Assembly: GCA_009839535.1 (NCBI GenBank)
Contig: VXPN01000103.1
Location: forward strand, 1 to 32,967
Source: Boseongicola sp. SB0662_bin_57
GTDB taxonomy: Bacteria > Pseudomonadota > Alphaproteobacteria > Rhodobacterales > Rhodobacteraceae
Length of the DNA: 32,967 bases
Direction of reading: 5' to 3'
The notes under the pieces were generated by a model. That model saw only the letters and a list, made by a program, of their open reading frames with translations. It did no database searches and was not told where the DNA came from. Positions 6,261 to 27,665 of the stretch are shown in pieces. Position 1 is the first letter of the stretch. Each line of letters begins with the position of its first letter. The position numbers and the translations under genes were made by a program.

Positions 6261-6371
6261 CGGCAGCGCGTGTTCGAACAGCACGCTCGATCCGTCAGTG
6301 AGGTCCCAACCTGCGTCCGCGAGCAGCGCTTCGATCCTGACCCGTGCAAAGGCCTCCGTCGTGGCGCTCAT
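6261..6371 (-). pseudogene. N-terminal scrap of an HsdR/DEAD-box type I restriction R-subunit-like protein
   Basis: 'MSATTEAFARVRIEALLADAGWDLTDGSSVLFEHALP' resembles HsdR-like N-termini; ATG overlaps the stop of the VapC relic; breaks off at about 6260. Confidence 0.5.
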
Positions 6372-6799
6372 GCGGCCGTCCACGAATTGACGGTCTCGAT
6401 TCCGGTGCCTTCGAAGTCCCTGACGTTGCGCGTGCCACAGTCGTTCCGTGCGCGCAAGCAATCGCGGCGATCTGACCATCTCCTGACGGGGACAATGCGA
6501 ACGATGGAACAGAGCCTGGCCGCAATGCAAGCAAGTTCCCGGCCAGCGTCGCTGTCGAAGGGAAGCACGCGATCCTCGAATGCGTTGCGCAACAGGCTCG
6601 CAATGTCCGCGACCAGCGTTTCCCGGCACCGGTCCGCGGGCCAGATGGCCGCGCCATGGCGCAACTCCGCTTCACTGGCGGCAGAGAAAAACAAGGATTC
6701 CAAAGGCAGGCCTGCGGCCCGTCTCTCGACGGAGGGCTCCAGCTTCTTGCAGATCAACTCCGACACCACGTTGGCGTCGAGCAACACGTTCACGGCCAC
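6368..6799 (-). pseudogene. FitB/VapC-type PIN-domain toxin, frameshifted
   Basis: Frame A: 'VNVLLDANVVSELICKKLEPSVERRAAG...FFSAASEAELRHGAAI..VLPFDSDAGRELACIAARL'; frame B: 'SPSGDGQIAAIACAHGTTVA'; back in frame A: 'TRNVRDFEGTGIETVNSW'. The continuous PIN domain needs two frame changes. Confidence 0.8.
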
Positions 6800-6807
6800 C
6801 TGCCTGT

Positions 6808-7049
6808 TCAATCGAAGGACGAAGGCTCGCGTCCTGGTTCGCGCGCGGGCAATTCCAGGTCCACCCCATTGTCCGGTCCGAAGTGCGAACGGATGATGCT
6901 CACGAGGCTCCGGGAACTCGGTCTTCGGCCAACCACATCCCGCAGGATCCACCGTGCCTTCTCTTCCATGGACCTGCCGCGGTCCGCCGCCCGCACCGGA
7001 GGCGAGTCTTCACGTCATCGTCCAGGTTGCGAATCGTTATACTTGCCAT
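6808..7049 (-). pseudogene. FitA/VapB-type antitoxin, frameshifted
   Basis: 'MASITIRNLDDDVKTRLR' in one frame and 'VRAADRGRSMEEKARWILRDVVG...VDLELPAREPGREPSSFD' in the next, consistent with a 1-nt deletion near 6994-7000. Confidence 0.8.
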
Positions 7050-7639
7050 GTCCTGCCCCCGTTCTTTTCCAAGCAATCGGCTATCCGTTGATTGCGGTGC
7101 AATCATGCTGCCGAAGGGAGGGCACAAGGTCAATGAGGCCGTCGCCTGTGGAGACAAAATGGCCTGAGGCAGCGCCGAGCCCCGCGGCCCGGAATTCCCG
7201 GCACTGACCCAGGGGTGACCAAGATCAAGCACTGGCTCCGGAACACCGCCGTTCGCCCTGAGGCCCAGCTGCACGCTCGGGACCAGCGTCGCGGCAAGGC
7301 TGCTGGTCGACGAGCCCGACTCGGACACCGCGCGGGAACCGGTTGCGAGCGGACGGGAGCGGCACGCGCCGCGCCTGATGGCTTCCGAGGTTGCCGGCGC
7401 GGCGCAACGGGAGCCCGGGAGGTCCGGGTCGCCGACGATTCAGTGCGTGCCCTTGTCGATGCCAGTCCCGGCGCAGTCCCCCGTCACGACCTCCAGGCAC
7501 TCGGCCGCCCCTCTTCGCTTGCGTGGCATGCGGATCCCTCCTCCGGTTGCCTCGCTTCACTCGATCCAGGGAGGAACCAGGGCGAATCCTCGACATTCTG
7601 CACGCCTCACAGGATCTTTGTCGGCAAGACCCGATCCGG

Positions 7640-8833
7640 CTAGAAGGTGATCATCGGTGTCGTCGTCAGAAGTTCTGCGCCGTCATCGGTAACGATCACG
7701 TTTTGCTCGAATCCCGCGGTCCCGACCGAGCGGTGGCGGACAAAGGCTTCAATGCCCAGCATCGTGTCGGCCTGCACTACTGCATCGCCGTGATCTTGTA
7801 CAGAGCTCAGATAGGGAGGGGTCTCAAAGTATAGTCCATTTGGGTGTCCGTAGAATGGATACTGCGCAGACGCGCCACCGCGATCCGAGCCAAGCTCGCT
7901 CACGAGCCGGTCACCATGCTTCGCAAAGTCGAGAAACGAAATCCCGGGACGAACGGCGTCCACCAATTCGTTCACGATCGTCGCACACCCCTCGATCAAT
8001 TCCCGCTGATCGCTGGTTGGATTGTTCCCCACGACACCCGTTCGTCCAGGATCAAAGTAGTATCCCTCGAGCGCCGGGCCGATGATGAACGCTCGAACCA
8101 TGTCGCCGGCTTTCGTTGGGCGAGTGGAATATCCGGTCAGTGGATTGGTGCAAGTATAGTCGATGAACGCGCCATGACTGCACGCGATCTTGTGGTAGCC
8201 TCCTCCCCTGCGTGCCAGCTCCCGCATGGCATTGCCGGCGGCTTCGGCCTCCGTCTCGCCCGCGACGAGATCTGACATCAGCCGGTCCATGGCCGGGTTG
8301 ATCACGTCGGCACCTTCACGGAAGCAGTCAAGTTCCCGCGCCGTCTTGGCAAATCTGACCGACCTTATCAGGTCGTCCACCACCTGCCAGGCGACGTCCG
8401 GCGTCATGTCGACAAGCCGTTGCCATTGCTTCATGGGAAAGAAGTCAGAGCCGGCAATGGCCACTTCTCCTGGTCCGGCCCGTTCCTTCAATGCCGCCGC
8501 AACGCTCGCCACAGGGTCGGGGTGATTGCGGACCCTGTCGGTTGCAACGAGACCGGGCCGAAGCTCCGGGTCGTCAACGTGCAATTCCGGGTTCTCGCCA
8601 CGGCGCAACAGAACGGCGCAAAACGTTCGTGCCTTGTTTGTGGACGTGTCGGTTCCCTGCCCCGTCGTTCCGGAAAAGTAGTTCGTCAGGTAGAGGATGT
8701 CGCCGGCCCGATCGCAGGATGCACTGGTCCTGCCCCAGACCACGGCGGTCTCGATCCCGCGCTTCTCCATCTCCAGTTCAGCGCGCTGCCAGCGGAGTTC
8801 GTATTCTTCTGGCGGAAAGTAACAGCTGTCCAT
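7640..8833 (-). CDS. M24 (creatinase/prolidase-fold) family protein, divergent active site
   Basis: 397 aa; 'YYFDPGRTGVVG', 'YPFYGHPNGLYFETPP', 'AGFEQNVIVTDDGAELLT' match the pita-bread fold C-terminal half; some canonical metal-ligand positions substituted. Confidence 0.8.
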   Translation of the reverse strand: MDSCYFPPEEYELRWQRAELEMEKRGIETAVVWGRTSASCDRAGDILYLTNYFSGTTGQGTDTSTNKARTFCAVLLRRGENPELHVDDPELRPGLVATDRVRNHPDPVASVAAALKERAGPGEVAIAGSDFFPMKQWQRLVDMTPDVAWQVVDDLIRSVRFAKTARELDCFREGADVINPAMDRLMSDLVAGETEAEAAGNAMRELARRGGGYHKIACSHGAFIDYTCTNPLTGYSTRPTKAGDMVRAFIIGPALEGYYFDPGRTGVVGNNPTSDQRELIEGCATIVNELVDAVRPGISFLDFAKHGDRLVSELGSDRGGASAQYPFYGHPNGLYFETPPYLSSVQDHGDAVVQADTMLGIEAFVRHRSVGTAGFEQNVIVTDDGAELLTTTPMITF

Positions 8834-8851
8834 CTCTCCTCCGGGGACTGG

Positions 8852-11080
8852 TCAGGCGGTGTCAAACGGACGATCGTCAAGGAACCGCGCCAGGACGTTT
8901 CCGGTCACCTGAGACACGTTGTTGGCAAATCCTTTGTGAGAAAGCGACGTCACCCAGGTTATCGAGCCGACCGAGAACACTGCGCCGCCGTTGGGTGTCT
9001 CGAAGAACACCATGTCGGCGCGGACAAAGCCGTGCTGGAGGCCATCGGTTCCACGCGTGGCAATCGGGTATTCCTCGCAGCTGAGAATGCCGTCGATCCC
9101 CACGTTTTCCGAGGACGCCAGGACGACGCTGTTCGGCGGCGAACCCAGGTCAGGATCCCACCTGTCGATTTCCAGGCCAGCGGCACCCCCGCCGCGGCGC
9201 CCGAAATCGCCGATCACTTCGTCATCGTCAATTCCCTCGAAAATGAACCCGAAGCGCGGCTCGTGGCTCGCAGCTGACCGGCGATAGTACGTGGACCTGG
9301 CAAACATGGTTGAAGAGTAACCGACCCCGACCAGGCTCTGCGGCGCACGTCCGTCGGTACGCCAAAGTCCGCCAGGCTCCCCGGTGAACAGCATGTGACC
9401 TTCGCCGGGCTCGCCTTCCCACGCCCTCACGCCAGTCGCGTCCTTGCGGCATTCAAGGATGCCGGGGTAGTCTTCGTGAAACCCGACCCGCCAGTAGAAT
9501 CCGTTGCCTCCGAGATACATGTGCCGCCCGCCGTTCCGCTGGTAGGCGTCAAGCGCGTCCCACATCCTGGTCGAGGTGTACTCCGGATGCGACAACGTCA
9601 TGATCACGGAATAGTCGCTGATCGCCGCCACGCCGCCTTCGTGAATGTCCTCGTCGGTCACGATGTCGTAGTCCTGGCCGATGTGGTCCAGCCAGGCGAG
9701 GAGATGCGTGTCATTGACATAGTTGAAGGTATAGGGACCCGGGCGCATGGTCAGCATGGGTCGAAGCCTGCTCGAATAGCAGACGCCGCTGCCGTCTGAA
9801 TGGTGGTCATAGGTCGAATGGCCAAGCTCACGATGTTCATGCAGATGCATGTCGTACTTGCCGACCTGGGTAACCGCTTCACCCATCACCTCGGAGCCAA
9901 CGGTGTCGAACTTCACGTGCGTGTTTGCATAGGCGAGATACGTGGCCGTGGACGCAATCACGGCGACCCGTGAGGTCGGCCTGCCTGCCTTGGGCCGGAC
10001 GAAGAACGGTATGTAGTCCGATGCGCCGTCGTCGGTTTCTATCAAGGCGGCATAGTATCCGCTTGCCGCGTCGTCCGGGACTGTCCAGGCAAAGTCGGTG
10101 TCCCAGTCACAGTCATAGACGTCATCGGCATGGAAATGAATTGCGCCGTACTGATCCTTCGCGTGTCGCCAATCAAGTGTTGACGCATTCCAGTTGTGCC
10201 CGGTCATTGCCCTTGTCGGCATGTTCACCGTGCGTCCGCCCAACTCGTTTACGGACACGTCCTCGATCCGCTCCGTGGCAATCTGCCTGCTGAAATCCCA
10301 GGATGCGAGCACATGCCCGCCTTCCGGGACAACGCCGCCCCGGAGGTAGCCGATCGCCTCCTCTGTGCTGACCCCGCCCGAAAAGACGCTGGGTCTTTCG
10401 ATCTTTCCATTGAAGAACGCTTGGGCCTTTCCGCCGCTGGCGGCTGCTTCGGCGGCAATCAGGAAACGGCCGCCAAGGACGCTATCTGACCCGTCCTTGC
10501 GAAGGTCCGCCGATGTCGCAACGCGCCCGGCCATCCCGGGAATCTCCCGCAGCGCGTGCTGCACGACCGAGATCCTGCGACGTTCGAGATCAACGGTCGC
10601 GGCAACGGCATACCAATGGCGCCGGATGACCTCCTGTCCGCTCGAAACATGCTGATCGGAACCGACGCGGACAGCGATCTCGCCTGCGGCGGACACTTCC
10701 AGCGACCAGCCATCCCCCGATGCCTTGTCCCGATGGCTCAAGATCACCTGCCGCCCGGCATCGGGCAGTGTCGGATGAACAAGGACGGCAATGGTGAAGC
10801 GAGCCAGGCCGTCGAAGAACGAGGGGTCATCGACTTCAGCGAACGAACCGGGGTGAATCGGCTGGTGTCTGCACGCGAACGGTCCCCCAATGACGTCCGC
10901 GACGTGGTCGACCCGAAAGCCGGGACCGAGAGGATCCTGGTCAGCGCAAATCACGCGGCCGATCCTGGCGCCGAACTTTCCGGGGTCGTCGCAACTGACC
11001 TTGAATTCGATGGTGCTGCCCGGAGACGCGTGCCAGTCGTCGCAATAGCCCAGGATCCTGACGCCACTTGGAAGCTCCAT
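8852..11080 (-). CDS. N,N-dimethylformamidase large (beta) subunit-like protein
   Basis: 742 aa; size and architecture match the DMFase heavy subunit: N-terminal beta domain, LamG/ConA-like segment (FTIAVLVHPTLPDAGRQVILSH...DGWSLEV...WYAVAATVD), C-terminal catalytic region with 'STATYLAYAN', 'HSTYDHHSDGSGVCYSSRLRP', 'SHPEY', 'YLGGNGFYWRV'. Adjacent small-subunit gene. Confidence 0.85.
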   Translation of the reverse strand: MELPSGVRILGYCDDWHASPGSTIEFKVSCDDPGKFGARIGRVICADQDPLGPGFRVDHVADVIGGPFACRHQPIHPGSFAEVDDPSFFDGLARFTIAVLVHPTLPDAGRQVILSHRDKASGDGWSLEVSAAGEIAVRVGSDQHVSSGQEVIRRHWYAVAATVDLERRRISVVQHALREIPGMAGRVATSADLRKDGSDSVLGGRFLIAAEAAASGGKAQAFFNGKIERPSVFSGGVSTEEAIGYLRGGVVPEGGHVLASWDFSRQIATERIEDVSVNELGGRTVNMPTRAMTGHNWNASTLDWRHAKDQYGAIHFHADDVYDCDWDTDFAWTVPDDAASGYYAALIETDDGASDYIPFFVRPKAGRPTSRVAVIASTATYLAYANTHVKFDTVGSEVMGEAVTQVGKYDMHLHEHRELGHSTYDHHSDGSGVCYSSRLRPMLTMRPGPYTFNYVNDTHLLAWLDHIGQDYDIVTDEDIHEGGVAAISDYSVIMTLSHPEYTSTRMWDALDAYQRNGGRHMYLGGNGFYWRVGFHEDYPGILECRKDATGVRAWEGEPGEGHMLFTGEPGGLWRTDGRAPQSLVGVGYSSTMFARSTYYRRSAASHEPRFGFIFEGIDDDEVIGDFGRRGGGAAGLEIDRWDPDLGSPPNSVVLASSENVGIDGILSCEEYPIATRGTDGLQHGFVRADMVFFETPNGGAVFSVGSITWVTSLSHKGFANNVSQVTGNVLARFLDDRPFDTA

Positions 11081-11083
11081 GAC

Positions 11084-11482
11084 TCAGATCCTCAGTTCGT
11101 GACCGGTGAGATCGGCCCAACGCATCTTGAACACTTCCCACTCCGCTTCGCCCGGATCCTCGAAAATCCGGTCATCCACTGCCTCGATCGGGCTGCCGCG
11201 CTCGCTGATGCGGGCAATCCGCCAGGACTTGAACGGCTCCACGATTGCCAGGATGTACTTGCCGCGAACGGGTGTCGCGCGCATGCGATGCAGGATGTAC
11301 CGGAGTTCTTCGCTGTGCGGACCGCGGATGTTCACCTTGAACTCAAGTGCGAGGTCTGTCCTTTCAGGATCGACAGGATACACTGCGGCATCTTCCCAAT
11401 ATCGGCGCATTCGCTCTCCCTCCACCGTGACATGACCAGCATAGGTCAGCCTGGCACGGAACTGCTTGCCCGAAGACGACAC
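11084..11482 (-). CDS. N,N-dimethylformamidase small (alpha) subunit-like protein
   Basis: 132-aa ORF ending 3 nt before the heavy-subunit start; 'MRRYWEDAAVYPVDPERTDLALEFKVNIRGPHSEELRYILHRMR'. Alternative start at 11410. Confidence 0.75.
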   Translation of the reverse strand: MSSSGKQFRARLTYAGHVTVEGERMRRYWEDAAVYPVDPERTDLALEFKVNIRGPHSEELRYILHRMRATPVRGKYILAIVEPFKSWRIARISERGSPIEAVDDRIFEDPGEAEWEVFKMRWADLTGHELRI

Positions 11483-11528
11483 CTATGTGCGCCCAAAAGG
11501 ACGATTCGCCTGCACACGATCCGACGGT

Positions 11529-12563
11529 TCAATGGATCCGCTGCGCCGATCGATCGCTGATCTTCCTCACGTGGGTATGCGCCACCGTACCCGTTTCCAG
11601 CCGGCGCTGCCGACGGTCCCTTGTCGGGGGCAATCCGAATTCATCGCGATAGGAACGCGAAAAGTGGGCCACCGAACCGAAACCGCATGACAGCGCGACC
11701 TCCATGACAGACAAGTTTGACTGCGTCAGAAGGCGACGCGCAAGATCAAGACGGGTGCGAACGTAGAACTGCCTCGGCGACGTGTGAAGGTAGGACTTGA
11801 ACAAGCGCTGAAACTGCTTGCTGGTCACGCCCACCGAACTGGCGAGATCCGCGATCGGCAGCGGATCCTCAAGGTTGTTTTCCATCAGGTCAATGGCTTG
11901 GGCAAGCACCGGGTGGGCCAATCGAGGGAAACGGGCGCCGACGGGCTGGGGGAGTGTCGACTGGCGAATGCTGTCAAGAATGAACTGGTCGGACACGGCC
12001 ATGGCAATGGGCAACCCGAAGTGCTGATGCACCAAGTGCAGGCCCAGATCAACGACTGCCGAACCGCCGGCGCACGTCATGCGCTTTCTGTCGATCTCGA
12101 ACAGGCAGTTCGATACGTCGACGTCCGGGAATTCCTCCCTGAAGCTGTCCAGATACTCCCAGTGGATCGTCGCGCGATAACCCCCGAGCAGGCCTGCCTT
12201 GGCCAGCAACAGGCTGGCTGAACCCAGCGCGGAAATCGAGCTTCCCCCAACCGCCAAACGGCGAAGCCAGGCGGCAACCCCGCTGCTTACTTCCCGTTGG
12301 GGATCATTGCCGGCCACGACGACGACGTTCGGCAGATTGGGGAAATCGCCAATCGAGGCGTCTGCATCGACAGCCAGTCCCCCGTTCGAACTGACCTGCT
12401 TGCCGTTGCGCGTGATAACGGTCCACTCAAAGAGGCAGCGGTCAGCCATCCTGTTTGCAATCCGAAAGACCTCGGAAAAGTTCACGAACGGCACCATCGA
12501 GAATCGCTTGTCGAGAAAGAAGCCGACCTGGATTGGTTGATCGCCGCCAATGTGATTGAACAC
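11529..12563 (-). CDS. GlxA-family (DJ-1/PfpI-like + AraC HTH) transcriptional regulator
   Basis: N-terminal GATase1-like segment (..TCAGGSAVVDLGLHLVHQHFG..) and C-terminal AraC domain (LASSVGVTSKQFQRLFKSYLHTSPRQFYVRTRLDLARRLLTQSNLSVMEVALSCGFGSVAHFSRSYRDEFG). Confidence 0.92.
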   Translation of the reverse strand: MFNHIGGDQPIQVGFFLDKRFSMVPFVNFSEVFRIANRMADRCLFEWTVITRNGKQVSSNGGLAVDADASIGDFPNLPNVVVVAGNDPQREVSSGVAAWLRRLAVGGSSISALGSASLLLAKAGLLGGYRATIHWEYLDSFREEFPDVDVSNCLFEIDRKRMTCAGGSAVVDLGLHLVHQHFGLPIAMAVSDQFILDSIRQSTLPQPVGARFPRLAHPVLAQAIDLMENNLEDPLPIADLASSVGVTSKQFQRLFKSYLHTSPRQFYVRTRLDLARRLLTQSNLSVMEVALSCGFGSVAHFSRSYRDEFGLPPTRDRRQRRLETGTVAHTHVRKISDRSAQRIH

Positions 12564-12575
12564 TGCAGTACCCCG

Positions 12576-12896
12576 TTAGCTCGGGCCCCCTCTGTCGTAG
12601 ACGCGTGACGCCAGGAGAGGATAGTCAAAGGGTCTTGGAGCTTCGCCGTCCACGTACATGTACGCAAACGCGTCCGTTATGCCCTTCAGGTCCGCGGTCC
12701 GCGCCTTCCAGGCCAGGTAGGCGTCTTCCGAACTGAAGACCGTAACGGCTATTCGTGCCTCACCCTCGCCCATCAACTGCATGGCAAGGCAATCCGGCTC
12801 GCTCTCCATGGTCTCAAAAACCAATGATCTGAACAACTTGACGGACTCCTCTGCAAATTCCGGCTTGCAGCGCCAGTGAGACGTCCGAACGTACAT
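12576..12896 (-). CDS. Antibiotic biosynthesis monooxygenase (ABM)-fold / quinol monooxygenase-like protein
   Basis: 106 aa; small ferredoxin-like dimeric alpha/beta-barrel pattern 'YVRTSHWRCKPEFAEESVKLFRSLVFETMESEPDCLAMQL...VFSSEDAYLAWKA'. Confidence 0.65.
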   Translation of the reverse strand: MYVRTSHWRCKPEFAEESVKLFRSLVFETMESEPDCLAMQLMGEGEARIAVTVFSSEDAYLAWKARTADLKGITDAFAYMYVDGEAPRPFDYPLLASRVYDRGGPS

Positions 12897-13020: not shown

Positions 13021-13170
13021 TCCTGGCGCAACACGCGTGCGGACGGCGCCCCCGCCCCGCTGGTTTCCGTCGCCGCGGCAGAGGTCACGGGCCCGGACTT
13101 CCCCGGCGAGCGGCTGATGGTCTGCCTGACCCCCGGCTGCGGCAGGGACCGCGCGGCGGGCAAGTGCCAC
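13021..13170 (+). mobile_element. IS1634-like transposase fragment (relic)
   Basis: Frame gives 'SWRNTRADGAPAPLVSVAAAEVTGPDFPGERLMVCLTPGCGRDRAAGK', resembling the '..DFPGERLxVCRNP.LAxERAxKRE' stretch of IS1634-type transposases; no full ORF or ends. Confidence 0.4.
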
Positions 13171-13988
13171 CCCGTACGCGGGGTTGGCGCCATCCGGCTT
13201 TCCACCCTGCCGATTCTGGAAACCGCTTCCATTGCGTGCAGATGGAGAACGCCGTGACGGCCTCAGCCGCCAACCGCGTTCCATGCTTGAAGTGCCGCGC
13301 CAGTTCCGGCGCGTTTTCGCCCGCTTCCCAACGTGGTCAAGACGCGTCCCCTTCGCAGCGCATTGGCCAACTGCAGCGACGATGGCTGCCTGGAAACCCT
13401 TCGACGCAAGGCGGGATGATCCTGCAGCGGTCGGACATCAACCTCCACGCCTTGTGCCTGCGACAAGCGCATCGAGGAACCCGCGCTCCTAGTCGCCCAG
13501 AGCCACTTGCACCGCCTTGCCTTTCGTCAAACTGCCTGCGGCTGATGTTGTCCGCCGCCTTGAAGGCATTGTCGTCACGGAAGACTGGACGATCGCAGGT
13601 GTTGGAGGACCTGCGTTTCCGTTCAGGCGCAGCAGGAAACAGGTGCACTTCATTGAATCCGAAGCGCCGGAGCACGAGGATCGGCATGCAGTCAGCCCGA
13701 TGCGCGCTGAGGCATTGCGAGGACACTACGCCTCGTCGAGCGCGCCGTCCATTCGGTACAAAGTTCGGTCGCCTGCATGCAATTTCACCCGCGAACCCCT
13801 GCTAGACTGTTGCTGCGGTTGTCGAGCTTCGGGTCTGTCCGGCCGCAAGGACATTGCGAAGTGACCAGGATCGCTCCACTCGATGTGAGTCACGCCGCAA
13901 AGCAAGATAGTGGTCAACGCGCTGGGCAACATGCTTCTCGGCAGCCGGCGTTGATCGCCATGCCACACCCGGACGGGAGGAAGAACAG

Positions 13989-14987
13989 ATGAACAAAGCT
14001 CTCACGAAGATAGCTGGAACTTGCACCGCCTTGGCAGTTTCCGTTGCTCCAGTGATGGCGCAGGAATACCGTTGGGACATGCCGAACGAATATGCAAAGG
14101 CCAGCGGACACTACTACGACGAGATTTTCGCAGACAAGCTTCGCGAGGCCACAGGTGGAGCGATCGACATCACGAACCACTATGGTGGATCGCTTGGCTA
14201 CAAGTCCAAGGACCATTGGAATGTCGTGGAAGACGGCGCCGCCCAGGTGGCCAGCACGTACACCGGCGTCTTTGCCGGGATCGACCCGATCTTCCTGTTG
14301 GTGTCGATGCCGTTCCTGGCGCGCAACATCGATGAATCGAAAGCGCTCTACGACGCTGCCCGCCCCTGGTACGAGGCTGCCTTCGAAAAGGGCAATCAGA
14401 AACTCCTTCTGGCTGTCCCGTTCCCGCCCGTGGGCATCTGGGCCAAGCAGCCTGTCACCGATACGGATGAACTGGCGCAGATCCGCATCCGCACTTACGA
14501 CAAGACCAGTACCGTTGCCCTGAAGGCAGCCGGAGCAAACGCGGTTCAGCTAAGCTGGGCGGACATCGTGCCAGCGTTGACAACCGGCACGATCGACGCG
14601 GTTCTTACCGCTGGCGAAGGCGGCGTTCTCTCCAGTTTCTATGAGCACATGGATCACTTCAACGCCATCAACTATGTTGCCGGAACGCAGATGTTCCACA
14701 TCAACAAGGATGCATTCGACGCGCTGACTCCCGGACTTCAGGAAACCGTTCTGCAGATTGCGAAAGAGACCGAGGACGAGGCCTGGGAGGCGATAAAGGA
14801 ACGAGTCGAAAAGTCATATGTCGCCATGCGCGAACAAGGCGTCACCATCATCACCGAGGATGATCTGGCGGACGGGTTCCTCGACAGTCTCAAGGAAGCG
14901 TCCCAGGTCGTTTTCCAGGAGTGGCGTGACAAGATGCCTGAAGGCGCCGCAGACAAGATCATTGCCAGCTTCAATGACATGAAGTGA
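13989..14987 (+). CDS. TRAP transporter substrate-binding protein (DctP family)
   Basis: Signal peptide MNKALTKIAGTCTALAVSVAPVMAQ; DctP pattern 'EIFADKLREATGGAIDITNHYGGSLGYKSKDHWNVVEDGA', 'IRIRTYDKTSTVALKAAGANAVQLSWADIVPALTTGTIDAVLT'. Confidence 0.93.
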   Translation: MNKALTKIAGTCTALAVSVAPVMAQEYRWDMPNEYAKASGHYYDEIFADKLREATGGAIDITNHYGGSLGYKSKDHWNVVEDGAAQVASTYTGVFAGIDPIFLLVSMPFLARNIDESKALYDAARPWYEAAFEKGNQKLLLAVPFPPVGIWAKQPVTDTDELAQIRIRTYDKTSTVALKAAGANAVQLSWADIVPALTTGTIDAVLTAGEGGVLSSFYEHMDHFNAINYVAGTQMFHINKDAFDALTPGLQETVLQIAKETEDEAWEAIKERVEKSYVAMREQGVTIITEDDLADGFLDSLKEASQVVFQEWRDKMPEGAADKIIASFNDMK

Positions 14988-15061: not shown

Positions 15062-15607
15062 ATGCCCGCCTCCGCCGTTGTTCTGTCCATCGATCGCGTT
15101 GCCCGCGGACTGTCCGTGGCGGGCGCAGTCGCGGCAGGCATCATCTTGATCGTGATGAGCTGCCACATCCTGGCCGAGATCGTCCTGCGTTCCTTCTTTT
15201 CCAGCACCACGTACGTCCTGGAGGAAATGATCGGCTACGGGATCGCGACCATGTCGTTTCTTGGTCTGGGATACGCGCTCAACAAGGGCGACCTGATACG
15301 GATGAACCTGGTGCTGGTTCGGCTGGGCGACACGACGGTGCGCCGGATTGTCGAGATCATCTGCATTGTCGGAGCGTTGACGTTCACAGGCATTGCATCC
15401 TGGTACTTTTTCATAAGCGCCGTGCGGGACTTTTCACGCGGCTACGTCAGCGAGACCCTGTCGGAGACACCGCTCTGGTTGCCGCCCTCGATCATGCTGC
15501 TCGGCATGATCATATTCATCCTTCAACTGCTGGCCTATCTGCTGCGCATCCTCGTTGGAGACGTGTCGTTCGCGGACGAAAGGTCCAGCGGGTTCCAAGA
15601 TCAGTGA
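15062..15607 (+). CDS. TRAP transporter small permease (DctQ family)
   Basis: 181 aa, 4 TM pattern; 'VLEEMIGYGIATMSFLGLGYALNKGDLIRMNLV'. Confidence 0.88.
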   Translation: MPASAVVLSIDRVARGLSVAGAVAAGIILIVMSCHILAEIVLRSFFSSTTYVLEEMIGYGIATMSFLGLGYALNKGDLIRMNLVLVRLGDTTVRRIVEIICIVGALTFTGIASWYFFISAVRDFSRGYVSETLSETPLWLPPSIMLLGMIIFILQLLAYLLRILVGDVSFADERSSGFQDQ

Positions 15608-15622: not shown

Positions 15623-16942
15623 ATGGATGTGGGCCCGCTTGAGGTAGCGTTCGTTACTTTGGGACTGCTGGCGCTCTACTTGACCTTGGGCGTCTGGGTC
15701 TTCGCTGCCGTCGGCCTCGTGGGGCTGACAACCCTGACGTTCATCCTGGACATGGATATCGACCGCATAGGAGCCATCATGCGTGGGGCGATGTGGCGGT
15801 CGGCCAGCACCTGGGAACTCTCGGCTGTTCCGATCTTCATCATGATGGGAGAGCTGATGTATCGCAGCGACTTTTCGGAGCGGCTCTTTCGCGGCCTGGC
15901 GCCATGGGTCTACAATGTTCCAGGAGGATTGCTTCACACGAACATTGCCGGATGCACGGTGTTTGCGGCCGTGAGCGGCTCGACGACGGCCACGACAGCC
16001 ACCGTCGGCAAGATAACGACGACGGCGCTGGCGGAAAGAAAATACGATCAGGGCCTCTCGATAGGGTCACTGGCTGGCGCCGGCAGCCTCGGGCTGATGA
16101 TCCCGCCGTCTATCTCGTTCATTATCTACGGCGTGCTGTCCGAAACCTCGATTGCCCGGCTCTTTGCTGCCGGGGTGTTCCCTGGCCTGCTGATCGCAGG
16201 ACTCTACTCCGGCTACATTGGCATGCGTGCGACAATGAACCCCGACCTCGCACCGCGCCACTCCGAGACATACACGGCATCTGACCGGCTGAGGGGCCTC
16301 ATCGATCTCCTGCCCGTGACCCTTCTCATTCTGCTTGTGCTGGGAAGCCTGTACAGCGGCATCGCGACTCCATCCGAAGCCGCGGCGGTTGGCTTTCTTG
16401 GTTCGTTCCTGCTGGTGACAGTGACCGGTCAAATGAGCTGGAAGCTGTTCATCGAGGCCGTGTCCGGGACAATTCGGATCACCACGATGGGCATCACGAT
16501 CCTTGTTGCCGCCAACTTCATGTCGTCGGCCATGGCATATCTGCACGTGCCCCAGGAAATCGCTCGGGTCATCGTCAGCCTTGGCTTGCCGGTGTATGCG
16601 CTCATGCTGCTTGTGGCAGTGTTCTACATAATCCTCGGACTGTTCCTGGATGGTCTCTCGATCATGGTCATGACGTTGCCGATCACGTTGCCCCTGATCG
16701 TGAGCGCGGGTTTTGATCCGGTCTGGTTCGGCGTCTTCATCGTCATCATGATCGAGCTCGGGCTCGTTACACCGCCGATCGGGTTCAACCTGTTCGTGCT
16801 TCAGGTCATGACAAAGCAGCCGATGGGATTCATCGCGCGTGCGGCGTTTCCGTTCTTCCTTCTGCTCTGTCTGGCGGCGGTCATAATCACGATCTTTCCA
16901 CAGATCGCGCTGTGGCTGCCGGACATCCTTTTCAACCGATAA
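15623..16942 (+). CDS. TRAP transporter large permease (DctM family)
   Basis: 439 aa; 'GCTVFAAVSGSTTATTATVGKI', 'GSLAGAGSLGLMIPPSISFIIYGVLSETSIARLFAAGVFPGLL', 'ELGLVTPPIGFNLFVLQ'. Confidence 0.95.
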   Translation: MDVGPLEVAFVTLGLLALYLTLGVWVFAAVGLVGLTTLTFILDMDIDRIGAIMRGAMWRSASTWELSAVPIFIMMGELMYRSDFSERLFRGLAPWVYNVPGGLLHTNIAGCTVFAAVSGSTTATTATVGKITTTALAERKYDQGLSIGSLAGAGSLGLMIPPSISFIIYGVLSETSIARLFAAGVFPGLLIAGLYSGYIGMRATMNPDLAPRHSETYTASDRLRGLIDLLPVTLLILLVLGSLYSGIATPSEAAAVGFLGSFLLVTVTGQMSWKLFIEAVSGTIRITTMGITILVAANFMSSAMAYLHVPQEIARVIVSLGLPVYALMLLVAVFYIILGLFLDGLSIMVMTLPITLPLIVSAGFDPVWFGVFIVIMIELGLVTPPIGFNLFVLQVMTKQPMGFIARAAFPFFLLLCLAAVIITIFPQIALWLPDILFNR

Positions 16943-16962
16943 CCACCGAAAGGCAGGCTCTG

Positions 16963-17505
16963 ATGTTCACAACTTTTGAAAGGCTGGCTCGCTACAATGC
17001 ATGGGCCAACCGCCGGATGCACAGGACATGCGCGAGGTTGACGGTCCGCGCATTGATGCAGGATCGTTCCGCGTTTCACGGCTCCATCTACTTGACGCTC
17101 GAGCACATCCATGCCGCTGATCGCCTTTACAGGGACCGGCTTGAGAAGCGGCCAATCAGCCTGGAGTGGCCCATCCAGCAGTTCTTCAAGGACATTGCGG
17201 AGCTGTCCAAGGCCCAGTTCGAACTTGACCAGTGGTATGTCGAGCGCATGTCCCGGGTCACGCAGGAAGAGCTGGAAGCCGACTGGCCGTTCATGAGCGT
17301 GGACGACGACCCCGTCCTGGTCAACGAGACGCTGGGGACCTGCCTGAGCAACCTGTATCAGCACCAGGTTCATCATCGCGGACAGGTTCACAACATGCTT
17401 TCGCAAGTCGGCGTCTATCCGCCGCCGATGGATTACGTGCTCTTCGCCATGGAAGATCGTGGGGACGAGATTCCCGACCACCTGAAGAGCCGCTGGCAGA
17501 ACTGA
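16963..17505 (+). CDS. DinB-fold family protein
   Basis: 'FERLARYNAWANRRMH', 'LTLEHIHAADRLYRDRL', 'LYQHQVHHRGQVHNMLSQVG' - intact DinB-type His motif; start taken at 16963. Confidence 0.88.
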   Translation: MFTTFERLARYNAWANRRMHRTCARLTVRALMQDRSAFHGSIYLTLEHIHAADRLYRDRLEKRPISLEWPIQQFFKDIAELSKAQFELDQWYVERMSRVTQEELEADWPFMSVDDDPVLVNETLGTCLSNLYQHQVHHRGQVHNMLSQVGVYPPPMDYVLFAMEDRGDEIPDHLKSRWQN

Positions 17506-17632
17506 ACAAGGTCCAGGGCCTGATCCCGAAGGCAGGCCACGAAGCAGGCATGCGTCGAACTGAAATGGCAGCGGAAGTCGCGGCCCGGCGCGGCGGGCAG
17601 AACGGGAATTCGTGCAGGAGGATGACGAACTC

Positions 17633-18568
17633 ATGAAACCACCCGCGTTTGTTGATTGCTACGGTGACCTAGCCGATCATCTGACGCCGGAGATCCTGGC
17701 GCACTGTCCAGGCATCGAGGTGATTTACGGCGAACCCGCCAGCGAGGACGAACTGATCGCGCGCCTCGCCGGGCGTCGCCACGCGATTGTGTACATGGGA
17801 TACCTCTCCAAGCGCGTGCTTGAAGCCTGTCCTGAACTCAGGTCGGTCGCCTACCTGTCGACAGGGTTGGCAACGCACGCGGACCTGCACGATGCAGACA
17901 GGCTTGGCGTGCGCATTGAAGGCGTGAGGAACTACGGTGATCGGGCGGTTGCCGAACACGCCATCACGCTGGCCCTCAGTTCGCTTAAGCGAATTGCCGA
18001 AGCCGACCGTCTCGTCCGGCAGGGCGGCTGGCAACTGTTGCGATCCGAAGAAATCGCGGGAGCGACATTCGGGATCGTGGGATTCGGCGGGACAGGTCGC
18101 GAAACGGCACGGATTGCCAAGGCGCTGGGCGCGGAGGTGATCGGGTGGTCGCGTTCCGGCGATCCCGGCGGGTGTGGCGCCACGCCGGTCGCCTTTGACG
18201 AAGTCCTGGAAAGGTCCGACATTCTCTCGCTGCACCTGGCACTGACGCCGGGCACCGCAGGCATAATTGGTCGGGATGCTTGCCAGCGATTGAAGCAGGG
18301 CGTCATTCTCGTCAATACCGCGCGCGGCGAACTCGTCGACCGGCAGGCGATGCTGGACGCTCTCGCGGCAGGGAGGATCGGGCACGTTGCCCTCGACGTC
18401 TTCCATCGGGAACCTCTTTCCCCGGATGACCCCTTGATCGGATGCGACAGGGTAACGCTGACCCCGCACTCCGGTTGGTACACCGGGCGCTCCGTCGACA
18501 ACCTCCTTGTCGCGGGCCTGAGAGTCCTTCGGCGACACATCGAGCAATCGAGCGTTGCCGATGGCTGA
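17633..18568 (+). CDS. D-2-hydroxyacid dehydrogenase (NAD-binding, phosphoglycerate dehydrogenase-like)
   Basis: 'GIVGFGGTGRETARIAKALGAEVIGWSRS', 'LKQGVILVNTARGELVD', 'ALDVFHREPLSPDDPL', 'TPHSGWYT' (catalytic R/E/H). Alternative start at 17612. Confidence 0.9.
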   Translation: MKPPAFVDCYGDLADHLTPEILAHCPGIEVIYGEPASEDELIARLAGRRHAIVYMGYLSKRVLEACPELRSVAYLSTGLATHADLHDADRLGVRIEGVRNYGDRAVAEHAITLALSSLKRIAEADRLVRQGGWQLLRSEEIAGATFGIVGFGGTGRETARIAKALGAEVIGWSRSGDPGGCGATPVAFDEVLERSDILSLHLALTPGTAGIIGRDACQRLKQGVILVNTARGELVDRQAMLDALAAGRIGHVALDVFHREPLSPDDPLIGCDRVTLTPHSGWYTGRSVDNLLVAGLRVLRRHIEQSSVADG

Positions 18569-19925
18569 AGCGACGGCAATCGAGACGCTTGCCAGGCATC
18601 TGGTCTCGGCAACGCGATCAGACATCCCCGATGACGTCTACGAGCGCGCAAAGGACTGCGTGGTTGATGTCATGGGCGCTGCGGCAGCCGGAGCGAACTC
18701 TTCGCCCGCGCGGGCAACGAATGCGGGGCTGACGGAACTCGTCGGTCCCGGCAGATCGTCGGTATGGTTCAGCGACGCCCAGGGTGGTGCAGCCGCTGCA
18801 GCGGCGGCGAACGCGATGGCGGCCACCGCACTTGATGTGGACGACGGGCATCGCAAGGCCGCCGGCCACCCAGGGGCGGCCGTCGTCAGCGCCGCGATTG
18901 CAGCTGCAGAAGAGAGCAATGCAAGCGTCGAGGAGTTCCTGTGCGCCGTGGTTCTCGGTTACGAGGCCTCGGTTGCGGCTGCCCTGGCGCGCCTTCCGGA
19001 GCACCACGGTTCAACAGTCAGCGGAAGATGGAGCGGGGTTGGCGCCGCCGTGGCCGCCGCGCGCCTGCGGGGGGTGACCAGCGACGTCATGGCCAATGCG
19101 ATCCTGGTTGCCGAGCAACACGCGCCCCGCCTGACATCGGCGCAATTGCACGGTTTCGCGGGATCAGACGTCAAGGAAGGCATATCATGGTCAGTGCTGA
19201 CAGGCATCGCGGCGGCCGGATTGGCGGCGCACGGCTTCAAGGGCTACCCCGGCACTTTCGAGGGCATGCTCTACGACGCTGAGCTTCTGGTTGGCGATCT
19301 GGGGAAATTCCAGGCCATTGGCGGCTTGTTTTTCAAGCCGTACGCGTGCTGCCGCTGGATTCACGCAGCGATGGACTGCCTGCATGACATTGTCCAGTCA
19401 TGGCAATTGAAGCCGGAGGACATAAGTCGCATCGAGGTGCGAACATTCAAGAATGCGGTTCGGCTGGCAAACGCGGTGGAGCCGAAATCCGGGCTTGAGG
19501 CCCAGTTCTCGATTCCGTTTTGCCTTGGTGCCATGGCGGTTCGTGGACCCGAGGCGCTCTGTCCTCTCGACCGGGACCTGCTTTCGGATTCGCGGATCAC
19601 TGACGTGGCACGCCGGACCCACATTGCCGAGGATCCAGGCATCGAAAGGTTGTTTCCAGCATGCACCGCGGCAATCGTGCGTGTGGAACTGCCGGATGCC
19701 AGTTCCTTCGAGAGACGTGCGGACACGCCTCTTGGGGATCCGACAAATCCCATGGACCGTGTTCAGCTCGTGCGCAAGTTCAAGCGGCTCATCGCCGAAG
19801 TCGCCGGATCGTGCGATGTTCCTTGGTTTCCCGAGGCCCTCTTTTCGGCCCCGCCGGAAAGCCGTTTGTCAGGGCTGACTTCGATGATTCGATGCCCACA
19901 GCCAGCCAGCGCCAGGCTCCAATGA
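18555..19925 (+). CDS. MmgE/PrpD family protein
   Basis: 'DVYERAKDCVVDVMGAAAAGA', 'ATALDVDDGHRKAAGHPGAAVVSAAIAAAEE', 'KPYACCRWIHAAMDC'; overlaps the previous gene by 14 nt. Confidence 0.9.
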   Translation: MPMAEATAIETLARHLVSATRSDIPDDVYERAKDCVVDVMGAAAAGANSSPARATNAGLTELVGPGRSSVWFSDAQGGAAAAAAANAMAATALDVDDGHRKAAGHPGAAVVSAAIAAAEESNASVEEFLCAVVLGYEASVAAALARLPEHHGSTVSGRWSGVGAAVAAARLRGVTSDVMANAILVAEQHAPRLTSAQLHGFAGSDVKEGISWSVLTGIAAAGLAAHGFKGYPGTFEGMLYDAELLVGDLGKFQAIGGLFFKPYACCRWIHAAMDCLHDIVQSWQLKPEDISRIEVRTFKNAVRLANAVEPKSGLEAQFSIPFCLGAMAVRGPEALCPLDRDLLSDSRITDVARRTHIAEDPGIERLFPACTAAIVRVELPDASSFERRADTPLGDPTNPMDRVQLVRKFKRLIAEVAGSCDVPWFPEALFSAPPESRLSGLTSMIRCPQPASARLQ

Positions 19926-20307: not shown

Positions 20308-21555
20308 ATGCGGGAAGAGACGATTGTCATTGGTGCGGGTCAGGCAGGATTGTGCGCAAGCTATTTCCTGACGCAGTTCGGAGTCCCCCACACGGTGTTC
20401 GAGGCAGGACGTGTCGGAGAATCCTGGCTTTCCCGGCGTTGGGACAGTTTCTGCCTGGTCACGCCCAATTGGACCGTGCAGCTTCCAGGCGTCGAGCTTG
20501 AGAGTTTCGATGCCGACGCCTTCATGTCGGGGGACGACTTCGTGGGTGTTCTCCGGCAGTTTGCCGAATCGTTCAATGCGCCAGTTCAAACAGGTTCACT
20601 GGTTTCGTCGGTGACGCGTCGCGGCGCTTCGGGATTCGAAGTGGTGACGAACGGGGAAACTCGTTGCGCATCAAACGTCATAGTGTGCTGCGGAGGGTAT
20701 CAGTTCATCCGCAAGCCGCAATTCGCCCGGCAACTGCCCGCCAGCGTCGAGCAAGTCGATGTCTCCACCTACCGAAGTCCAGGCGATCTCCCAGACGGAT
20801 CGGTTCTGGTGGTAGGCTCTGGACAGTCCGGGACCCAGATCGCGGAAGAGCTCAGTGAATCGGGACGTGATGTCTATTTGTGCGTCGGCAAGGCTGGGCG
20901 AATCCCGCGAAGGTACCGAGGGCGGGACTTGAGCCATTGGCAACTGGAAATGGGGATAGTTGACCGCACGGTTGATCAGCTGGACTCTCCTGCCGACCGG
21001 TTTCGTGGCGATCCACATGTAAGTGGCAGACGCGGTGGGCACACCTTGAATCTCCACCAGCTTGCTCGCGACGGCGTTCAGTTGCTTGGGTCGCTTTCGG
21101 CGGTGGACGGCCCGAAGATCAGCTTCACGGACAATCTTGCCGAAAACATGAAGGCGGCCGACGACTTCTCTGACACCTTCTGCCGGATGGTCGACGACTA
21201 CATCGAGGAGAAATGCATAGACGCGCCTCTTCCCGACGACGAGAATTCGGATTTCGGAGGCGGGACGGGTCCATGTCCGTCTTCGCCAGGTGATCTCGAC
21301 CTGGGGAGCTGCAACATCCGCACGGTGGTATGGGCCACCGGGTTCGGGTTCGATTTCTCTTGGGTGCGTTTTCCGGTTTTCGATGAGTTTGGCTACCCGA
21401 AAACCAAGAGAGGCGTAACCGAAGTCGAGGGTCTCTATTTCCTGGGGCTGAACTGGCTGCACACGCGCAAGTCCGGGACCATACTGGGTGCTGGAGACGA
21501 TGCGAAGCACGTCGTCGATCACTTGCGTCAAACGCGAACCGTGCCGGTCAGATGA
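20308..21555 (+). CDS. NAD(P)/FAD-dependent flavin monooxygenase (CzcO/FMO-like)
   Basis: 'ETIVIGAGQAGLCASYFLTQFGVPHTVFEAGRVGESWLSRRWDSFCLVTPNW', second Rossmann 'VLVVGSGQSGTQIAEEL'. Confidence 0.9.
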   Translation: MREETIVIGAGQAGLCASYFLTQFGVPHTVFEAGRVGESWLSRRWDSFCLVTPNWTVQLPGVELESFDADAFMSGDDFVGVLRQFAESFNAPVQTGSLVSSVTRRGASGFEVVTNGETRCASNVIVCCGGYQFIRKPQFARQLPASVEQVDVSTYRSPGDLPDGSVLVVGSGQSGTQIAEELSESGRDVYLCVGKAGRIPRRYRGRDLSHWQLEMGIVDRTVDQLDSPADRFRGDPHVSGRRGGHTLNLHQLARDGVQLLGSLSAVDGPKISFTDNLAENMKAADDFSDTFCRMVDDYIEEKCIDAPLPDDENSDFGGGTGPCPSSPGDLDLGSCNIRTVVWATGFGFDFSWVRFPVFDEFGYPKTKRGVTEVEGLYFLGLNWLHTRKSGTILGAGDDAKHVVDHLRQTRTVPVR

Positions 21556-22898
21556 TGGGTGTGTCGGTGACCAAGGCACTCGACGCCCAGCCTGGGAGCC
21601 TTCCTCGCCGGTTTGAGGGGACTGACCAGCCATGGTGGTGGGAATGGGCGCCGCGCGACAAGCGACCTCCAGGCGCCTTGCCGAAGTCAGCCGATGCGGT
21701 GGTTGTCGGCTCGGGCTACGCCGGTCTGTCAGCGGCACTTACGCTGGCCCGGGCGGGGCGAGAGGTAATCGTGCTCGATGCAGGCTTCCCGGGACATGGC
21801 GCGTCCAGCCGGTCGGGCGGCATGATCGGGAGCGGGCACGTTGTTCCGTTCGAACGGCTCAGTCGTCTCTACGGCGATCAGCAGGCCTCGGCAATCCTGC
21901 GGGAAGGGCTGAATTCCTTTGCCTTCACGAAGAACCTGATCGAGTCAGAGAGCATCGAATGTCACTTCCGTCAGGTCGGGCGGTTGCGTGCTGCATGGCG
22001 ACCGCAGGATTTCGACATGATCCGGCGCGATGTCGACCTGGTCACGAAATTGCTCGACTACGATGTCACGGTGCTCGGAAAGGCAGAACTGGCCGAAGAA
22101 CTGGGCACGGACCGCTACGCAGGCGCCTGTGTCTACAACCGCCACGGCGGGCTGCATCCCGCGATGTTCCATTCCGGCCTCCTGGACGTCGTGGTTGAGG
22201 CCGGCGCCAGGGTGTTCGGAGACAGCAAGGTCGTAGCCATTGACGACGCGCGTCACCGCAAGATCGTTCGAACCGAACGTGGCCAGGTGGCGACGTCAAA
22301 CGTGATTGTCGCGACCAACGGCTATACTTTCCCGGAGCTTCGGCCGTTTGCGCAGCGACTCATTCGGGTTCACGCCTACATGATTGCCACGGAAGTCATC
22401 GGACAGGAACGTACCAGGCAGATAATTCGCAGGGATCGGATGGTCGTCGAAACGCGTTGGCGCCACTGCTACTATCGAAGGTCGCCCGACGGAGAGCGCA
22501 TCCTGTTCGGCGCCCGCGTATCGCTGGGCGCCGTCAGTCTGGACAGGGCAGCCAAGGTCATCAGGAAATTGATGGCCGAGCTGTATCCCGAGCTGAAAGA
22601 TGTCGGCGTGACCCACTGCTGGACGGGACAACTGGGGTTTGCCCGCGATTTCCTGCCGCACATCGGAGAGATTAATGGCGTTCACCACGCCTTGGCCTGC
22701 AACGGTTCTGGCGTTGCGATGCAGCCATACACCGGCCACAAGGCAGCGCTGAAAGTGCTGGGCTCTCCGGAAGGCAAGACAGCTTTTGACAGCCAGGAGT
22801 TCCGACCGATCCATCCGTTTTACGGGGGGCGTCCTTGGTTCCGCCCATTCCTGTCCGCCTACTACCGGATGAAGGACTTCAAGGAGGGATCGAGCTGA
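21552..22898 (+). CDS. FAD-dependent amine/amino-acid oxidoreductase (DadA/DAO family)
   Basis: 'DAVVVGSGYAGLSAALTLARAGREVIVLDAGFPGHGASSRSGGMIG' FAD motif; 'ATNGYT', 'CNGSGVAMQPYTG'. Overlaps the upstream stop (ATGA). Confidence 0.92.
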   Translation: MMGVSVTKALDAQPGSLPRRFEGTDQPWWWEWAPRDKRPPGALPKSADAVVVGSGYAGLSAALTLARAGREVIVLDAGFPGHGASSRSGGMIGSGHVVPFERLSRLYGDQQASAILREGLNSFAFTKNLIESESIECHFRQVGRLRAAWRPQDFDMIRRDVDLVTKLLDYDVTVLGKAELAEELGTDRYAGACVYNRHGGLHPAMFHSGLLDVVVEAGARVFGDSKVVAIDDARHRKIVRTERGQVATSNVIVATNGYTFPELRPFAQRLIRVHAYMIATEVIGQERTRQIIRRDRMVVETRWRHCYYRRSPDGERILFGARVSLGAVSLDRAAKVIRKLMAELYPELKDVGVTHCWTGQLGFARDFLPHIGEINGVHHALACNGSGVAMQPYTGHKAALKVLGSPEGKTAFDSQEFRPIHPFYGGRPWFRPFLSAYYRMKDFKEGSS

Positions 22899-24983: not shown

Positions 24984-26734
24984 CCGGAAAGAGCAAGGCC
25001 TCAGAGGGCTTTCGCGTTGACCCGATTGCACTCGAGATCATGTTGAACGGACTGCGCTCGATTGCGGATGAAACCTACAACGCCCTGACCCGCAGCGCAT
25101 ATTCGACCAACATAAAGGAACGCAAGGACCATTCGACTGCTGTCATGGATGCCTCGGGCCGGCTGATCGCGCAGGCCGAGAACTCTCTGCCAATCCATCT
25201 TTCTTCGATGGCAGGAATAATGCAAGCGCTGCTGCAGAAGTACCGGCGAGGGGAAATCCAGGAAGGCGACATATTCGTTTCAAACGATCCTCACGTCGCC
25301 GGCGGTTCCCATCTGCCGGACATCAACCTGGCGCAACCGGTCTTCGCCAATGGCAAATTGCTGGCGTTTGTCTGCAACATTGCCCACCACGCCGACGTTG
25401 GCGGCATGGCGCCGGGGTCGGTCGCTGGCGGAATGACCGAGATCTACCAGGAGGGTCTGCGGATTCCCGCCGTCAAGCTGTTCGATCGCGGCGAACTGGT
25501 ACGTGATGTCTTTGACATTCTCTTGCTCAACGTTCGCGTGCCAGAGGAACGACGTGGCGACTACAACGCACAAGTTGCGGCCTGCAAGCTTGGTGAGCGT
25601 CGCATGCAGGAATTGGTCGAGCGCCATTCGGCGGAAATGCTGGAACGCGCCTTCGGGGACATCATTGCGAGGACCGAGAAGCGCCTGAGAGACGCGGTGC
25701 ACGCCATTCCGGACGGCGTATATCGCTACCGGGACTTGATGGATGATGACGGGTGCGGAAATCTCGACATTGAAATTGCTGTGGCGGTCACTGTGGACGG
25801 CGACAGGATCTCCTTTGATTTCGCGGGCACCGCTCCACAAGCTGCCGGCAACATCAACTCGCCGTTCAATGCGAGCCACGCGACGCTTTGCTACGTGGTC
25901 AAGGCTCTCGTCGACCCCGATGCGCCAAACAACCAGGGAGTGCTGAACGTCTGCGAAATGATCGCCGAACCTGGATCGCTGGTGAATTGCATTGCTCCAG
26001 CAGCATGTGCCGCGCGCGCGAATACCTGCCAGCGGATCGTGGACGTGGTGATCGGAGCCTTGGCCGACGCCATGCCCAAGGCCGTGGTTGCAGCGGCGAA
26101 CGGCGCAAATACCGCGGCGGTCTTTTCCGGCAAGCATCCGGATTCGGACAAGAGCTATCTCTACATCGAAACCATAGGGGGCGGTTTCGGTGGCCGTGCG
26201 ACGAAGGACGGCACGGACGGCGTGCAGGTTCATTCCACGAATACGTCGAACCTTCCTGTCGAAGTCATGGAAGCGGAGTACCCGCTTCGCGTGATGCGCT
26301 ACGAACTGGTTCAGGATTCAGGAGGTGCAGGTGAGCACAGGGGGGGGCTCTCGATCCGTCGGGACGTGACTCCCATTGGACACGTGTGCACGTTCAGCGG
26401 TCAGGGCGAGAGATTTCGCCATCAGCCTTGGGGGCTTTTCGGGGGAGAACCGGCCATGGCGGGACGTTTTGCCTTGATCTGCCCCGACGGGCAAATTGAC
26501 GTGTTGCCCGGAAAGCCTTCGGGCGTGGATGTTTCCGCCGGGACGATCATATCGATGCAAACGGCCGGTGGCGGAGGCTATGGGCACCCAGGAAACAGGT
26601 CACGGGACGAGGTGGACGAGGATGTCGCGAGCGGGAAATTCTCGACTTCCTTTGTCAACAAACACTACCGCGGCTGCAAAAAGGCAGGTCGGCCCAGCGG
26701 CAATCGGAAACGCCTGGATCGCAGAGACTCTTGA
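24980..26734 (+). CDS. hyuB: Hydantoinase B/oxoprolinase family protein
   Basis: 'NIKERKDHSTAVMDASGRLIAQAENSLPIHLSSM', 'SNDPHVAGGSHLPDINLAQPVF', 'YPLRVMRYELVQDSGGAGEHRGGLSIRRD'; ATGA overlap with hyuA. Confidence 0.95.
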   Translation: MTGKSKASEGFRVDPIALEIMLNGLRSIADETYNALTRSAYSTNIKERKDHSTAVMDASGRLIAQAENSLPIHLSSMAGIMQALLQKYRRGEIQEGDIFVSNDPHVAGGSHLPDINLAQPVFANGKLLAFVCNIAHHADVGGMAPGSVAGGMTEIYQEGLRIPAVKLFDRGELVRDVFDILLLNVRVPEERRGDYNAQVAACKLGERRMQELVERHSAEMLERAFGDIIARTEKRLRDAVHAIPDGVYRYRDLMDDDGCGNLDIEIAVAVTVDGDRISFDFAGTAPQAAGNINSPFNASHATLCYVVKALVDPDAPNNQGVLNVCEMIAEPGSLVNCIAPAACAARANTCQRIVDVVIGALADAMPKAVVAAANGANTAAVFSGKHPDSDKSYLYIETIGGGFGGRATKDGTDGVQVHSTNTSNLPVEVMEAEYPLRVMRYELVQDSGGAGEHRGGLSIRRDVTPIGHVCTFSGQGERFRHQPWGLFGGEPAMAGRFALICPDGQIDVLPGKPSGVDVSAGTIISMQTAGGGGYGHPGNRSRDEVDEDVASGKFSTSFVNKHYRGCKKAGRPSGNRKRLDRRDS

Positions 26735-27388: not shown

Positions 27389-27569
27389 AGCCACCTGTTG
27401 GCACCTTTTCACATACCCAAGCGAAACCGCCCGAGGCTGCTCACATGTCCTGCGCAGGCCGCTCGTGGAGATCGGTTGCATGCGGCACGGCCGACCTCAT
27501 GATCTTTGACAGGAATTGTTGCCCCCGAAAGCCAAGATCAGCCAAAGTGCTTCGCCAATTCGCAGATTC

Positions 27570-27609: not shown

Positions 27610-27665
27610 CTCGTAGTTGTTCGACCGGTAAACTCGCTGGCGTGCAAGGGACTGCGAAACCTTTG

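Follow-up and report, generated by a model that had tools for sequence, protein, structure and literature searches.

The N,N-dimethylformamidase (DMFase) of Paracoccus consists of two subunits, DmfA1 and DmfA2 (structure 6LVB; plasmid pAMI2). The small-subunit gene lies directly before the large-subunit gene, and a regulator gene is located upstream on the same strand. The activator of this operon belongs to the LuxR family (PMC4543880), as an initial annotation of the DNA described below had stated. The iron ligands of DMFase are Y399, Y440 and E521, the catalytic residue is H519, N547 is a further key position, and Phe693 narrows the pocket to small amides (PMC7686228). A second characterised enzyme, N-acetyl-(R)-beta-phenylalanine acylase (8HUY), provides a precedent for a DMFase-like fold that cuts an N-acyl amino acid. 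Here, we analysed a stretch of 32,967 nucleotides (the window) from the alphaproteobacterium Boseongicola sp. SB0662_bin_57 (contig VXPN01000103.1, assembly GCA_009839535.1), which contains a five-gene unit encoding a DMFase-like enzyme with a different regulator and different neighbours.

A conserved five-gene unit

The unit extends from 12896 to 7640 on the minus strand. It encodes, in this order, an ABM-fold protein of 106 amino acids (12576-12896; PF03992, E 3.5e-6), a GATR-type regulator with GlxA/DJ-1 and AraC helix-turn-helix parts (11529-12563), the small subunit (11084-11410; no Pfam match) and the large, catalytic subunit (8852-11080; 742 amino acids) of a DMFase-like enzyme, and an M24-fold protein (7640-8833; PF00557, E 1.3e-18). 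All five open reading frames had been placed correctly, in order and strand, by the initial annotation. The gaps of 12, 46, 3 and 18 nt that it reported are valid between open reading frames, but the gap between the regulator and the small subunit is probably 118 nt rather than 46 nt. Small-subunit orthologues align only from ATG 11410 onwards (MRRYW.../MYRYW.../MFRYW...) and in the window GGAGGGAG stands just before this codon, so that the true start is most likely ATG 11410, which yields 108 amino acids, and not the GTG at 11482 to which the open reading frame extends. No terminator-like sites were found on the minus strand within the unit. Given the shared strand and the absence of such sites between the genes, co-transcription of the five genes is plausible.

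The same gene order occurs in six genomes including the window, with protein identities of 62-84% (76-84% for the ABM protein) and a DNA identity to the window of 69-71% across the matching parts. The five other carriers are an Albidovulum metagenome-assembled genome (MAG; L025), a Rhodobacteraceae MAG (L027), L105 (genome G021), L106 (the same locus as L026; a Silicimonas MAG, G007, whose genus is shared with the window) and L148 (genome G363). For each of the genes compared, substitutions were in excess at the third codon position, as in real, constrained genes; the comparison covered all five genes between L025 and L105, and four of them between the window and L106. Because the order is kept in six genomes and the substitutions follow this pattern, the five genes form a real unit, conserved among a small number of related bacteria, and are not a product of chance. 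The window comes from an assembly of 560 contigs with a completeness of 65%, but a chimeric contig is an unlikely cause of the gene order, since the order recurs in five other genomes.

The carriers also differ in detail. An aspartate-transaminase-like gene next to the operon is intact in L027 (6625-7866), reduced to a remnant of 45 amino acids in L106 (13902-14036) and was not detected in the window. Genome G363 has both a window-type operon and the module of a more distant, second tier of loci (contigs C96, C52 and C73, corresponding to L148, L150 and L149, respectively).

The association extends to genome content. Among 397 genomes of the family, the M24 gene and a close homologue of the large subunit, each present in seven genomes, coincide in six (indicative p 9e-12). 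A close homologue of the TRAP protein DctP, which is encoded on the plus strand beyond the ABM gene, occurs in five genomes, only where both of these are present (indicative p 3e-10). In G047 the large subunit is located on contig C5, while M24, TRAP and HyuAB genes are on contig C2, unlinked in the assembly; the association is therefore more than close physical linkage.

Relationship of the subunits to characterised enzymes

The large subunit matched the Pfam family DMFA2_C (PF20254) with 325.4 bits (cut-off 27; E 8e-97). Its matches in the Protein Data Bank (PDB) were 8huy (488.7 bits) and 6lvb (475.1 bits), from which it is about equally far, with identities of 39.4% to the acylase and 36.5% to the characterised DMFase. 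In an alignment of 113 homologues, which takes in the window, DMFase and the acylase, the equivalents of Y399, Y440, E521, H519 and N547 are invariant, while the pocket residue F693 is replaced by Ile in the window and by Ser in the acylase. Because the catalytic residues are kept and F693 is changed, the chemistry is very likely the same as in DMFase, whereas the specificity is free to differ.

For the small subunit, a single-sequence search gave only a weak match (E 0.16), and a profile that included Paracoccus DmfA1 (4e-22) was set aside as circular. A profile built without any DMFase sequence had 6lvb_B as its sole PDB match (E 2.5e-6), and the predicted model (pLDDT 85) matched 6lvv_B best (TM-score 0.72, E 1.8e-5). 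According to both the profile and the model, the protein has the fold of the DMFase small subunit, and it is encoded beside the large one, although the N-terminal extension of about 24 residues in the DMFase small subunit is absent here. In five loci, the small and large subunits are fused in one reading frame of about 840-865 amino acids (L077:3991-6540, L078:9629-12187, L080:6770-9286, L098:2590-5184 and L104:9620-12169). These natural fusions support that both subunits work as one enzyme. Another arrangement was observed in five loci from Rhodospirillaceae and other alphaproteobacterial MAGs (L047, L051, L076, L079 and L085; at about 3.7-12.2 kb in each), where three tandem DMFase-like large subunits follow a single small-subunit gene.

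In two trees of the large subunit, the window groups with four of the other carriers in a single clade (support 100). Its sister group consists of the second-tier loci L028, L107, L108, L110 and L116, and the larger clade that holds both leaves out the two characterised enzymes. Approximately unbiased (AU) tests rejected trees in which the window clade was forced together with the characterised DMFase (p-AU 1.6e-6) or with the acylase 8HUY (p-AU 3e-7). The trees and AU tests thus rule out that the window protein is an orthologue of either enzyme. The suggestion of the initial annotation, a distinct DMFase-like operon class that possibly has a different substrate, is supported by these results: the large subunit takes a separate branch, and its neighbours are different. 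Whereas the Paracoccus operon has the LuxR-type regulator DmfR, the window has a GATR regulator, and it adds the M24 and ABM proteins and a module for transport and ring opening. Two subunits, a small-subunit gene directly before the large one, and an upstream regulator gene on the same strand are common to both. The acylase shares the homologous large subunit and identical catalytic residues, but loci of its clade (L088, L100, L114, L115 and L121) have no small-subunit match and their neighbours differ from those in the window. Judged by these sequence comparisons, the substrate is probably other than N,N-dimethylformamide (DMF). A precedent for a non-DMF function at this distance is a second dmfA1-dmfA2-like pair on plasmid pAMI5 of P. 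aminophilus, which is 34% and 40% identical and was not found linked to DMF use (PMC4543880).

The regulator, the M24 protein and the surrounding module

The regulator combines a DJ-1/PfpI domain (PF01965, E 7.9e-9) with HTH_18 (PF12833, E 1.1e-22). It shares this architecture, a DJ-1/PfpI (GATase-1) domain with an AraC-type helix-turn-helix, and the linkage to catabolic genes with GbdR, CdhR, SouR and ArgR of Pseudomonas. The catabolism of quaternary amines is controlled by GbdR and CdhR, and that of sarcosine by SouR, but the arginine regulator ArgR is named as a relative whose binding site is very similar (PMC5806209). Hence, the inducer cannot be read from membership of the GATR family. 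The best curated model for the window regulator was GbdR, with 296.6 bits against an NCBIfam equivalog cut-off of 480. In view of both observations, the hint at N-methylated amines in the initial annotation stays tentative. Orthologues of the regulator with 62-64% identity occur only in operon carriers, and the next-best homologues, with 39-43% identity, occur in about a hundred other genomes of the 397.

The M24 protein keeps four of the five metal ligands (D261, H330, E362 and E376), while the first Asp is replaced by Phe. The same position is Phe, Trp or Thr in all ten orthologues, in which column counts of the alignment show the other four ligands to be conserved. Its fold is similar by structure to prolidases, creatinase, the ectoine hydrolase DoeA and DddP alike. 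Curated creatinase models gave no match to the protein, and the DoeA model gave only a trace (E 0.0014). Neither a creatinase nor a prolidase fits the ligand set and the family models; the likeliest identity is a non-peptidase C-N hydrolase. M24 homologues with 40-43% identity in two other alphaproteobacterial genomes had no module neighbours save weak matches. In L107 (10668-11438, reverse strand) the M24 gene lies broken in two pieces just downstream of the large subunit, and L108 has a HyuB remnant near the large subunit (8161-8331).

The initial annotation overlooked a larger conserved module in the window, of which the five genes are a part. The plus strand encodes the TRAP transporter proteins DctP (13989-14987; PF03480), DctQ (15062-15607) and DctM (15623-16942), of which DctP is 81-83% and DctM 84-85% identical in five related loci. 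They are followed by a DinB-family protein (16912-17505; PF05163, E 1.4e-20; 77-78% identity in five of five related loci), a D-2-hydroxyacid dehydrogenase (17612-18568; PF02826, E 5e-54) and an MmgE/PrpD protein (18555-19925; PF03972/PF19305; 50-54% identity in second-tier loci). The dehydrogenase also occurs in L027, L106 (cut by the end of the stretch), L148, L107, L108, L110, L116, L146 and L150. Further downstream are a conserved MSMEG_0569-like flavin monooxygenase (FMO; 20308-21555; TIGR04046, 408.8 bits, below the cut-off of 498) and an FAD oxidoreductase of the DAO family (21552-22898; PF01266, E 2e-56; AmaA-like, below the cut-off). HyuA (22932-24983; PF01968) and HyuB (24980-26734; PF02538) resemble adenosine triphosphate (ATP)-dependent lactam and hydantoin hydrolases. 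Their best curated models were the caprolactamase subunits CapA and CapB, with 556 and 290 bits against cut-offs of 1000. The window shares the presence of a HyuA/HyuB pair with caprolactamase CapAB and the hydantoinase HyuAB, but its pair is not an equivalog. HyuB is 77-78% identical in L027, L106 and L148. The plus-strand genes from 27516 to 29954 encode an amino-acid (PAAT) ABC transporter with ATPase, permease and binding protein (29133-29954; SBP_bac_3), and such a transporter adjoins M24 in L025, L105, L108, L143, L144 and L149.

Around the other operons and the second-tier loci the TRAP, DinB, FMO, HyuAB and ABC neighbours are retained in shuffled order. Second-tier loci contain the sub-blocks M24 with the ABC transporter, ABM-DinB-FMO(-HyuA-HyuB), a second DAO-family protein (DAO2) with the dehydrogenase (and MmgE), and TRAP. 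Furthermore, an aspartate-transaminase-like gene is divergent from the small-large pair in these loci. The ABM homologue of the ABM-DinB-FMO(-HyuAB) group is 33-42% identical to that of the window; ABM, DinB and FMO occur together in L143, L146 and L150, joined by HyuAB in L143. DAO2 is nearest to N-methyltryptophan and sarcosine oxidase models. Searches of the literature turned up no account of such a gene set.

Proposed function and alternatives

With moderate confidence, we propose that the small and large subunits are an Fe(III) amidase, whose substrate would be an N-acyl or ring-opened carboxylate, within a dedicated module for uptake and breakdown. The five genes would be one regulated unit of this catabolic module. 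The two subunits would assemble into an alpha/beta amide hydrolase that depends on Fe(III), in which two Tyr and one Glu hold the iron and a His is catalytic. This enzyme may cleave an amide bond in a compound that resembles a carboxylate or an amino acid, either an N-acyl amino acid or the ring-opened product of a lactam or hydantoin. The substrate would enter by the TRAP transporter, the amino-acid ABC transporter or both. Oxidation and ATP-dependent ring opening would be provided by ABM, FMO and HyuA/HyuB, and the M24 protein, probably a non-peptidase C-N hydrolase, may act on a neighbouring step. The released amino acid could then be processed by the DAO-family protein, the D-2-hydroxyacid dehydrogenase and, in relatives, the transaminase. 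The GATR regulator would sense a pathway compound and activate the unit.

Several points weigh against this proposal. The presence of ABM with DinB and FMO in second-tier loci implies that its place in the unit may be due to regulation and not to the amidase step, and members of the module could be used by several pathways. Searches for a conserved GATR operator gave no significant site: the best match to the published GGTCGC-N15-GGTCGC-like motif in the gap upstream of ABM (13145-13171) had two mismatches, equally good matches occurred throughout the window, and a comparison of the upstream regions of the six operons gave no clear common block. Moreover, the co-occurrence p-values are indicative because the identity thresholds were set once the data had been inspected and the genomes are partly interdependent.

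More tentatively, the five genes together with their flanks may encode an entire, previously undescribed route for the breakdown of an unnamed nitrogen compound. Such a route would combine uptake by the TRAP and ABC transporters, oxidation by FMO and ABM and ring opening driven by ATP with an M24 hydrolase that has a reduced metal-ligand set and a two-Tyr, one-Glu iron amidase of new specificity. Two transporters that depend on binding proteins, a dedicated regulator and the co-occurring enzymes point to one pathway, and thereby offer a route to a new substrate. Solved structures of this amidase fold represented only two activities in the PDB copy searched. Its homologues occur in many different bacteria, Chloroflexota and Actinomycetota among them, and on a haloarchaeal plasmid. 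They are usually annotated as 'N,N-dimethylformamidase', a label that, as the locus suggests, misleads for many of them.

A pathway for an N-heteroaromatic or oxindole-type compound would use many of the same genes: FMO and ABM would oxidise the ring, HyuAB would use ATP to open the lactam, and an N-formyl or N-acyl group would be removed by the DMFase-like enzyme. The joint travel of FMO, ABM and DinB, with HyuAB in one locus, and the caprolactamase models for HyuAB are consistent with it. However, no ring-cleaving dioxygenase or ring-hydroxylating oxygenase was recognised among the window proteins scanned, and we consider such a pathway unlikely.

Closest to the hint in the initial annotation is an N-methylated-amine pathway, with substrates like creatinine, methylhydantoin or sarcosine. 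Here, HyuAB would open methylhydantoin, the DMFase-like enzyme or M24 would remove a carbamoyl or acyl group, DAO would demethylate, and a GbdR/SouR-like regulator would sense sarcosine or dimethylglycine. The presence of HyuAB, the GbdR model and the GATR kin in amine catabolism, and the models nearest to second-tier DAO2 all agree with this scheme. It is nevertheless quite unlikely, since the regulator falls far under the GbdR cut-off and ArgR has a similar binding site, the M24 protein matches no creatinase model and has lost the first metal Asp, and HyuA is closest to caprolactamase. A creatinine deaminase was not noticed in the window, though no systematic search was made for it.

An ordinary dimethylformamidase under a different regulator, with DMF or N-methylformamide as its physiological substrate, would account for the conserved catalytic residues and the identical two-subunit make-up. 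The low identity and separate clade, the rejected grouping with DMFase, the replacement of F693 by Ile, the carboxylate and amino-acid transporters among the neighbours and the pAMI5 paralogue pair make this very unlikely. Finally, five unrelated chance neighbours without a functional unit, as the 118-nt gap ahead of the small subunit might suggest, are extremely improbable in view of a gene order that six genomes preserve, with a DNA identity to the window of 69-71%, a regulator orthologue confined to operon carriers and co-occurrence even where the genes are unlinked.

Some minor features were also recorded. In L117 (6096-6359) a 'predicted AAK-1 beta-lactamase' of the plasmid table lies wholly within an IS3 transposase gene, and is probably a mis-annotation. 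No tRNA or Rfam family was found in the window. A degraded FitA-like antitoxin (PF22513, E 8e-6, slightly below the cut-off) and an adjoining PIN-like frame with no Pfam match occupy 6368-7328 of the window, and a LolA-like protein and two FtsX/MacB-type permeases are encoded on the minus strand between 2362 and 5738.

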